Below the pieces are notes generated by a model. The model was not told where the DNA came from and made no database searches. It saw only the letters and a list, made by a program, of their open reading frames with translations. A stretch of DNA of 64,000 nucleotides from Lachnospiraceae bacterium (lineage in GTDB: Bacteria; Bacillota; Clostridia; Lachnospirales; Lachnospiraceae): NCBI GenBank assembly GCA_024695145.1, contig JAILIS010000006.1, positions 1 to 64,000 of the forward strand. The letters run 5' to 3'. Shown one piece after another: positions 30,426 through 32,651 of the stretch; positions within the stretch are counted from its first letter, which is position 1, and the number at the start of each line of letters is the position of its first letter. The translations under genes and the position numbers were made by a program.

Positions 30426-30441
30426 AAACAATATCTTGTAT
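30426..30441 (-). promoter_or_regulatory. NrdR-box-like palindrome 2
   Basis: AAACAATATCTTGTAT (+ strand); 13/16 by hand against the same consensus; 32 bp from box 1. Confidence 0.55.
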
Positions 30442-30452
30442 CATAAACTATA

Positions 30453-30481
30453 ATTTAACACTACATAATGTTTGCTGTCAA
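30453..30481 (-). promoter_or_regulatory. Candidate sigma-A promoter of nrdDG
   Basis: Minus strand TTGACA-N17-TTAAAT, about 40 nt upstream of the nrdD ATG. Confidence 0.65.
30458..30473 (-). promoter_or_regulatory. NrdR-box-like palindrome 1
   Basis: ACACTACATAATGTTT (+ strand); 13/16 by hand against acaCwAtATaTwGtgt; lies in the promoter spacer. Confidence 0.55.
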
Positions 30482-30543: not shown

Positions 30544-30552
30544 TGTTATATT
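30544..30552 (+). promoter_or_regulatory. Candidate extended -10 promoter of the AP2-domain gene
   Basis: TGTTATATT (TGn-TATATT) about 30 nt upstream of the first ATG; no good -35. Confidence 0.4.
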
Positions 30553-30582: not shown

Positions 30583-31389
30583 ATGAAAGGTAATGGAAGT
30601 ATGGCACTTGCCGGCGCATTCAAGGCACAGCTCAAGAACGGGAAATACTATTACAGGAGTTCCGTCACCTATAAGAACAAGCATATAAGTCTCGGAAGCT
30701 ACAGTACCGAGGATGCTGCTCACAATGCCTACAGGGTTGCCAAGGAGCTGATCTCCAACAGGTCAATAACCATTGATGCTTACCGCACGGATACGGCACT
30801 TGATTTTGACAAATTCGTTACCATTATCAATTTCAGGGATAACAATGTTTATATCAAGAATCCCATCTATCTTGAGAAGACTTACTTTTCCTACTATCTC
30901 ACTCCTTCAATGGTTTTTAAGTTCGATATAGACGATCTGTTTTATTTTGCCAGCCACAAGATCAGCCGCAGGCGTGGTCATCTGTGGGTAGCCGATTACG
31001 GTATGCAGGTCAATCTGTACAGCAGGTACGGGATCAAGCCCCATGCGGTGCTCGGCCGTGACTACAGATTTATCAACGGTGACAGATATGATTTCAGGTA
31101 TGACAATATAGAGATAATCAACCGCTACACAGGTGTATATGCCGTCAAGCGCGGTGTTTATACGAAGTATTCGGCCCGTATTCTCGTAAACGGACTGTAT
31201 ACGATCGGTACATATGATACAGAGACCGAGGCTGCCATTGCATACAACAAAGCAGCGGATATCATCAAAAAAGCACGCCCCGGCAAAAACTTCAGACAGA
31301 ATTATATAGATTCCCTGTCTGCCAAAGACTACGCTCTTATGTACATCAAGGTTCCGATATCAGACAGGATATTTGCCGATTTTACTTAA
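30583..31389 (+). CDS. Two-AP2-domain protein with degenerate HNH-like core (putative DNA-binding protein)
   Basis: 268 aa (or start 30601, MALAGAF); AP2-like repeats GKYYYRSSVTYKNKHISLGSYSTEDAAHNAYRVAKELI and GVYAVKRGVYTKYSARILVNGLYTIGTYDTETEAAIAYNKAADII; central FINGDRYDFRYDNIEII. Confidence 0.7.
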   Translation: MKGNGSMALAGAFKAQLKNGKYYYRSSVTYKNKHISLGSYSTEDAAHNAYRVAKELISNRSITIDAYRTDTALDFDKFVTIINFRDNNVYIKNPIYLEKTYFSYYLTPSMVFKFDIDDLFYFASHKISRRRGHLWVADYGMQVNLYSRYGIKPHAVLGRDYRFINGDRYDFRYDNIEIINRYTGVYAVKRGVYTKYSARILVNGLYTIGTYDTETEAAIAYNKAADIIKKARPGKNFRQNYIDSLSAKDYALMYIKVPISDRIFADFT

Positions 31390-31397
31390 ACGTTATC

Positions 31398-32651
31398 TCA
31401 CTTCTGTTCGTAATTGATAAAGCTTATGTCCAGATCGATATCCTGGTCTATCCCGTCTATCCTTCCTTTTTTGTTGTACTGCCACATAGTGAACTTATAA
31501 GGAAAATCTGTGGGAACATTTTCATCAGACAGCCAGATATCATAATCTCCGAGTTCCACAAGATCCAGCCCCGTTATGATCATATCCCTTGTTGCATAAA
31601 CAACGGGCTTGTAACCGTAGCCCTTTACTGTATCGCAAAATGTCTTTACGACCGCGGTACGCTCCTTTGATGTGAGTTTGTCTGTCCTGGCCTCATCACC
31701 GCTGACTGTCTCTATATCAATGGCAATGGGATATTTGATGTTAAACCCGGAAACGGCACCCACGATATAGTTTGCTTCCTCTATGGCTTCAGCCTCACTT
31801 ATCGCCTGTGAATAAAAATAAGCACCTGTCTGGATCCCGGCAAGCTGGGCGTTCTGAGCATACTCCACAAACTTCTCATCAAGTGTGATGGTTCCGGTAC
31901 CGTAGCCGCGACTGCCGAGCCGCAGCATGGCAAATCTCACGCCTGCATCCTTTAACTTTGCAAAATCAACAGTTCCGTTATACTTGGACAGGTCGACACC
32001 CTTGATCCCTTCCCGCTTGCTGTCTTTGTATGAGACCATACCGTTCTCGTGGATCAGGTTGCTCTCAAAGTCATAATCGTTCTTGGGAACATCGGATAAT
32101 ATCTCATAATATGTTTTCTTGCCGTTGTAACCTTCAACGGCAAGGTAGTTTTCTTTATCTTTCGGAGCATCATCCTTTGAATCCTTGTTAAGGGATCCTT
32201 CACCCTCTTCGCCCTCATCACGCTTTTTTTTGGGTGTTGACGATGATGAATCATCGTCCGAATCATCATCTTTATCTTTATCTTTTTCTTTATCGGTATC
32301 TTTGTCGGAAGATGATCCTTCTTCGGATTCGGAATCGGGATCCTTGTAAGGAGTAAGTTCTCCTTCGTCCTCTTTCGGATCGGCCTTGGCTGTGCGGCTC
32401 TCCTTTTTTGCGTCTTCCCAAAATTCAAGCTCGGAAGATGTTATGTTGTGACTGTCACTTAAAAAATCATCCTCCCTCTCTTCTTCTTTTGTTTCGGGGG
32501 GCTTTACGGCCGTTTTTTTCGGCTCTGTATTGACATACAGAACGACAAGGAACAGCAGTATCACAAGTGATGCCGCTGCCACGCACATAGCAACAGTCTT
32601 CTTATACGATCTGTTATCATCCGGGTCCTGATTCATGTAAGATGATGCCAT
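31398..32651 (-). CDS. GH25-family lysozyme with N-terminal TM anchor and acidic linker
   Basis: 417 aa; GVDLSKYNGTVDFAKLKDAGVRFAMLRLGSRGYGTG, YPIAIDIETV, TMWQYNKKGRIDGIDQDIDLDIS. Confidence 0.92.
   Translation of the reverse strand: MASSYMNQDPDDNRSYKKTVAMCVAAASLVILLFLVVLYVNTEPKKTAVKPPETKEEEREDDFLSDSHNITSSELEFWEDAKKESRTAKADPKEDEGELTPYKDPDSESEEGSSSDKDTDKEKDKDKDDDSDDDSSSSTPKKKRDEGEEGEGSLNKDSKDDAPKDKENYLAVEGYNGKKTYYEILSDVPKNDYDFESNLIHENGMVSYKDSKREGIKGVDLSKYNGTVDFAKLKDAGVRFAMLRLGSRGYGTGTITLDEKFVEYAQNAQLAGIQTGAYFYSQAISEAEAIEEANYIVGAVSGFNIKYPIAIDIETVSGDEARTDKLTSKERTAVVKTFCDTVKGYGYKPVVYATRDMIITGLDLVELGDYDIWLSDENVPTDFPYKFTMWQYNKKGRIDGIDQDIDLDISFINYEQK

Follow-up and report, generated by a model that had tools for sequence, protein, structure and literature searches.

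A chromosomal AP2 – degenerate HNH – AP2 protein family of the Lachnospirales as a candidate domesticated homing endonuclease

Disarmed or dismantled endonucleases have been recognized in, or proposed as the origin of, several regulators. WhiA, a host transcription factor of Gram-positive bacteria, contains a LAGLIDADG domain that has lost its metal-binding and catalytic residues (PMC3781837). For the AP2 factors of plants, an origin from HNH-AP2 endonucleases has been proposed (Magnani 2004, as cited in PMC10448857), and CapR, a repressor carried by a phage satellite, is derived from T5orf172 endonucleases (PMC10448857). Among the active enzymes, I-HmuI (1u3e), the HNH homing endonuclease of Bacillus phage SPO1, uses D74, H75, and N96 as its catalytic residues (PMC12724721).

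Here we describe a gene found in the window, by which we mean the whole stretch of 64,000 nucleotides of Lachnospiraceae DNA that was analysed. The open papers searched contained no published description of its AP2 – dead HNH – AP2 family, which others may describe, and no host protein of bacteria that documents the passage from nuclease to regulator with the dead core retained.

Domain architecture of the protein

An uninterrupted open reading frame of 268 codons extends on the + strand from an ATG at 30583 to the stop at 31389. The homologues all begin with MALAGAF or MSxAGVF, and in each case a ribosome-binding site lies at the usual, equal distance upstream. Consequently, the real start of the gene is most likely the ATG at 30601, which would give a protein of 262 aa, and residues are numbered here from that Met. 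The first-pass annotation had assigned the gene a promoter of its own with an extended -10, and such an element is present (Table 1).

Table 1. Positions of the gene, its promoter-like element, and segments of its product within the window
Feature	Position	Strand	Remarks
Extended -10-like promoter of the AP2 gene, TG-T-TATATT (TGTTATATT)	30544..30552	+	Element kept by several close relatives
Longer ORF, as in the first-pass annotation	30583..31389	+	268 aa, ATG to stop
Likeliest true CDS, MALAGAF...	30601..31389	+	262 aa; homologue starts and RBS AAAGG upstream
N-terminal AP2 module, residues 5-53	30613..30759	+	Strand motif YYRSSxTYxNKHISLGS, conserved order-wide
Family-specific conserved block NFRDNxVYIKNPIYL, residues 77-91	30829..30873	+	Matches no known domain
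Degenerate HNH (His-Me finger) segment, residues 105-175	30913..31125	+	Best-conserved part of the family
S141 codon, at first His of the HNH motif (I-HmuI H56)	31021..31023	+	
R156-F157 codons, at the I-HmuI catalytic pair D74-H75	31066..31071	+	
F165 codon, at the Asn of the D-N-R motif (I-HmuI N83)	31093..31095	+	
C-terminal AP2 module, residues 176-224	31126..31272	+	Directly after the HNH segment

When scanned as a single sequence against Pfam, the protein gave weak matches to AP2 and HNH_3, of which AP2 fell below the gathering cut-off; the PHROG scan identified HNH endonuclease families at E 3.6e-13 and 2.2e-8. These two scans yielded AP2 and HNH rather than any LAGLIDADG or WhiA match, and no known family name was obtained from NCBIfam or PADLOC. 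Comparison by hhalign of a 34-member alignment of the family with 14 phage HNH-AP2 enzymes gave a probability of 97.8% (E 1.3e-12) over 119 columns that span both HNH and AP2. With AP2 removed from both sides, the HNH-only comparison still scored 29.2, and the highest score among column-shuffled templates (n=200) was 20.7. Furthermore, profile matches to phage-type AP2 reach E ~5e-13 for each AP2 module, and the N- and C-terminal modules match each other at E 1.6e-12. The best solved match to AP2 in the profile search was WRI1 (E 1.4e-7). Profile matches to designed TIM barrels in the PDB, whose individual stretches are very weak, were dismissed as chance. Judged by these profiles, the product of 30583-31389 has the architecture AP2 – degenerate HNH – AP2. 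Thus, the two AP2-like modules proposed from the first inspection of the sequence are real, and the segment between them, which had been aligned with the HNH-AP2 motif, is a real relative of HNH. In one family of the order, the same protein carries a third, C-terminal AP2 module (L050 5195-6229; G062, G184).

It had also been suggested that the fold is kept, for which an AlphaFold comparison was proposed. Models obtained with AlphaFold2 from 15 sequences have a pLDDT of 76 for the whole protein and 81 for residues 96-231, the HNH + AP2 fragment. Foldseek searches of the PDB retrieved plant AP2 structures, with the AP2 domain of TEM1 at E 1.3e-3 and a probability of 1.0, and returned no HNH structure for either the whole model or the HNH + AP2 fragment, both of which are built from few sequences. 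Against a viral library, the matches were mostly to HNH-AP2 proteins, and the HNH hits had low TM scores. The comparison therefore recovered AP2 but did not find the HNH fold among solved structures, and because the PDB search returned no HNH structure, assignment of this fold comes from sequence profiles and not from structure.

The nuclease active site

To place the residues of the family in register, the profile of the phage HNH-AP2 enzymes was aligned to I-HmuI, so that the invariant D-H pair of the profile corresponds to D74-H75, N83 of the profile to N87, and N92 to N96. In this register, the two Phe that the first-pass annotation had reported at the catalytic His and at the first Asn are F157, at I-HmuI H75, and F165, at I-HmuI N83. 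Other losses accompany these: D74 has become R156, and the stretch bearing N96 is deleted, which explains why the C-terminal AP2 module directly abuts the HNH segment. Among 106 distinct family members, the position of H75 is occupied by Phe in 105 and by His in none, that of D74 usually holds R, I, L, or K (Asp in three), and the segment that bears the metal ligand N96 is deleted in the family. The refuting condition set in the first-pass annotation, homologues with an intact catalytic His elsewhere, was examined on the same 106 proteins and did not overturn its reading; at the site itself, none has a catalytic His. Some of the motif is nevertheless retained, since N169, the equivalent of N87, is present in all 106 members and R142, the equivalent of R57, in 105; R166 is also kept.

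The nuclease site has thus been lost family-wide, as far as the Asp-His pair and the N96 equivalent are concerned. In contrast, the Asp-His pair is intact in all 14 of the phage HNH-AP2 enzymes compared. Because the changes are common to the members of the family while the phage enzymes keep the pair, the catalytic loss is old rather than a defect of one gene.

Distribution, selection, and genomic setting

The source genome contains one copy of the AP2 – HNH – AP2 gene, as do 35 of its 36 congeners. In the remaining congener (G008), the nrdD orthologue is missing as well, and consequently the locus is probably unassembled there. Across the order, the gene is carried by 111 of 392 genomes, in 48 of 173 genera and six family-level groups, and it is single copy in all but one carrier, in which a frameshifted gene yields two pieces. 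This split gene (G282:C1:3450508-3451283, L111), in a genome that is 99% complete, is the only clearly broken copy seen. No match was detected in the sampled genomes of other orders of the class, and a sample of 392 genomes drawn from across the class had all of its matches in the gene's own family.

Carriage by plasmids was not found, and records of the viral collection with the gene are largely pieces of bacterial chromosome. Two UNVERIFIED records labelled 'Bacteriophage sp.' were considered as possible phage carriers and rejected. Since MT836856.1 (L057) carries thrC, citrate synthase, and leuD, and MT837267.1 (L058) carries leuC and leuD, all of the Lachnospiraceae type, both are taken to be chromosomal contigs. 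The search of related genomes thus bears out the earlier description of a free-standing chromosomal gene and extends it to a single-copy chromosomal family across the order. The sequence evidence strongly supports an ancient, vertically inherited, single-copy family.

The gene is under strong purifying selection, with a rough dN/dS of ~0.03. For 12 orthologues (that of the window and 11 others at 86-91% identity), the mean dN is 0.076, with dS close to saturated. This puts the ratio of means at 0.034 overall and 0.023 in the HNH-like segment, values that are rough because of the saturation and because many pairs were not computable. The lowest ratios are found in the HNH-like and C-terminal AP2 parts. 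In addition, the mean pairwise column identity of the 106 proteins is 0.62 in the HNH-like segment versus 0.46-0.48 in the AP2 modules. Given that the HNH-like segment is both the best conserved and among the parts with the lowest ratios, the dead core probably has a job.

Within the genus, the gene order is nrdG-nrdD followed by AP2, (Hydrolase_2), GH25, ApbE, and the Rnf genes. The Hydrolase_2 gene lies between AP2 and GH25 in L036, L051, L054, and L055, and is missing here (31389-31398). In many other genera and families, the AP2 gene is divergent from a Hydrolase_2 (PF07486) gene and threonine synthase; within two genes of AP2, Hydrolase_2 is found in 23 of 48 loci and threonine synthase in 32 of 48. 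Distances among the AP2 proteins correlate with those of the neighbours Hydrolase_2 (r 0.86), GH25 (0.89), ApbE (0.91), and thrC (0.53), and in each case the value was reached in none of 999 permutations; no correlation with RnfB was observed over seven loci. The gene is therefore without the mobility features of a homing endonuclease, being chromosomal and single copy, at a conserved locus, and with distances that follow those of its neighbours.

The first reading of the window placed the gene divergent from nrdD. This holds in the window and in the closest relatives, to which the direct divergence is limited, and no constant divergent target gene was found, since nrdD, a WYL regulator, Hydrolase_2, thrC, or other genes occupy this position. 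The idea that the AP2 protein regulates nrdD is consequently unsupported: a regulator gene of the WYL/WCX type intervenes between nrdD and AP2 in L051, L054, and L055, and other genera have other genes. On the nrdD side of the intergenic region, two NrdR-box-like 16-mers, 31 bp apart, can be seen by eye at 30427-30442 and 30458-30473, a position expected for control of nrdD by NrdR. Close upstream of AP2 in ten congeners, there is an element of ~40 bp, AAAAAAATCTAyAcCrrACwACAAnATATrGTGTATACT, which occurs in either orientation and has an NrdR-box-like core.

The Hydrolase_2 neighbour also raised the idea of a sporulation-specific role. Neither the source genome nor the congener G025, which is 99% complete, yielded a match to Spo0A_C, which suggests that the genus is non-sporulating. 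Since these and many other genomes without Spo0A retain the AP2 gene, a role specific to sporulation is unlikely.

Candidate functions and comparison with known systems

Taken together, the profile evidence and the distribution support well a model in which the family descends from an HNH-AP2 homing endonuclease whose site was destroyed family-wide and which became a stable, selected host gene. The sequences strongly support an origin in which a free-standing HNH-AP2 homing endonuclease lost its metal and general-base residues plus part of the HNH finger, gained a second AP2 module at the N-terminus, and was retained by the host. The two AP2 sheets would read double-stranded DNA without cleavage, and the protein would repress or activate a small set of promoters. 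The dead HNH segment may serve as a rigid spacer, as a DNA clamp that does not cut, or as a surface for a dimer or partner. We therefore consider it probable that the protein is a domesticated HNH-AP2 homing endonuclease working most likely as a site-specific regulator that binds double-stranded DNA.

The first-pass annotation had likewise suggested repurposing as a DNA-binding regulator. Its premises of HNH-AP2 descent, a dead site, and a selected host gene stand up, whereas a count of spaced 4+4-mers in 72 thinned upstream regions revealed no shared operator upstream of the AP2 gene; its output consisted only of pieces of the extended -10, start codons of neighbouring genes, and a genus-specific element. 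Because the strand motif of the N-terminal AP2 module is kept across families, the sequences suggest that this module has one conserved DNA target across the order. A more ambitious proposal, which we put forward tentatively, is that of an order-wide AP2-type transcription regulator with one DNA motif and regulon, in which the former nuclease core would be the functional heart, used for effector sensing, dimerisation, or contact with RNA polymerase.

The evidence for domestication applies equally to a DNA-binding protein whose role is architectural or lies in replication or repair rather than in regulation of specific promoters. Such a role would fit the outcome of the operator search and the differing neighbours among genera; however, the presence of two AP2 modules whose reading face is conserved suggests that binding is sequence-specific, and we regard such a role as unlikely. 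It is a good deal more doubtful that the protein is still a nuclease, with an active site rebuilt from residues such as D109, Q136, D154, R166, and N169. Little or no variation is seen in these residues, and the HNH-like segment is the best-conserved part of the protein, but all members lack the general base H75 and the metal ligand N96, only three have Asp at the position of D74, and a conserved His is missing from the site. Even less probable is a chromosome shield, that is, a protein that occupies the target sites of invading HNH-AP2 homing endonucleases without cutting them; a dead homologue could compete for such sites, and related enzymes of the active type are found in phages, but there is neither a match to a defence system (PADLOC) nor a defence-island setting. 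Finally, a selfish or decaying remnant without host function, despite its clear kinship to phage homing endonucleases, is already largely refuted by the fixed single copy, the conserved locus, the low dN/dS, the intact gene in nearly all carriers, and a catalytic loss common to six families.

Roughly one in four of the genomes sampled from this large order, which comprises bacteria of the gut and rumen, thus retains the gene as a single, stable chromosomal copy. If the protein is a regulator, it would be a second bacterial case, beside WhiA, in which a whole lineage retains a disarmed homing endonuclease, it would give bacteria that abound in gut and rumen a core DNA-binding protein that is as yet unannotated, and it would provide a direct way to ask why a dead nuclease scaffold is retained. 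If the order-wide reading is also true, the family would constitute an independent bacterial parallel to the origin of plant AP2, with the nuclease core retained.

Of the known systems, the phage HNH-AP2 homing endonucleases (IPA-HNH type, PHROG 99 and 953) share with the family an HNH segment followed by AP2, as seen in the profile match. Unlike them, the family is chromosomal, single copy, and apparently vertically inherited, it is without the catalytic Asp and His and the N96 equivalent, and it has an extra AP2 module at the N-terminus. I-HmuI is linked to it through the phage enzymes and shares the register of the HNH motif, but D74, H75, and N96 are all missing here; the C-terminal DNA-binding part of I-HmuI is not known to be AP2. 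CapR is a repressor that originated in the DNA-binding portion of a homing endonuclease, but the domain is a different one, and CapR is borne by a satellite and acts on a phage. Plant AP2/ERF factors such as TEM1 and WRI1 have AP2 modules, two in some cases; however, plants kept AP2 only, whereas the bacterial proteins retain a degenerate HNH core as their most conserved part.

As in WhiA, purifying selection maintains a dead endonuclease scaffold that is encoded by a host gene, and both are retained in non-sporulating lineages. The protein is nevertheless not a member of the WhiA family proper, with its LAGLIDADG domain and C-terminal helix-turn-helix. The endonuclease family is LAGLIDADG in WhiA and HNH here, WhiA is taxonomically far wider, and it binds DNA mainly through the added helix-turn-helix, a task that would fall here to the two AP2 modules. 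Furthermore, the function of WhiA has been tested, whereas the role as a regulator is a putative one here. The family is thus best described as an order-level case of the WhiA and plant AP2 kind, a domesticated HNH-AP2 homing endonuclease.
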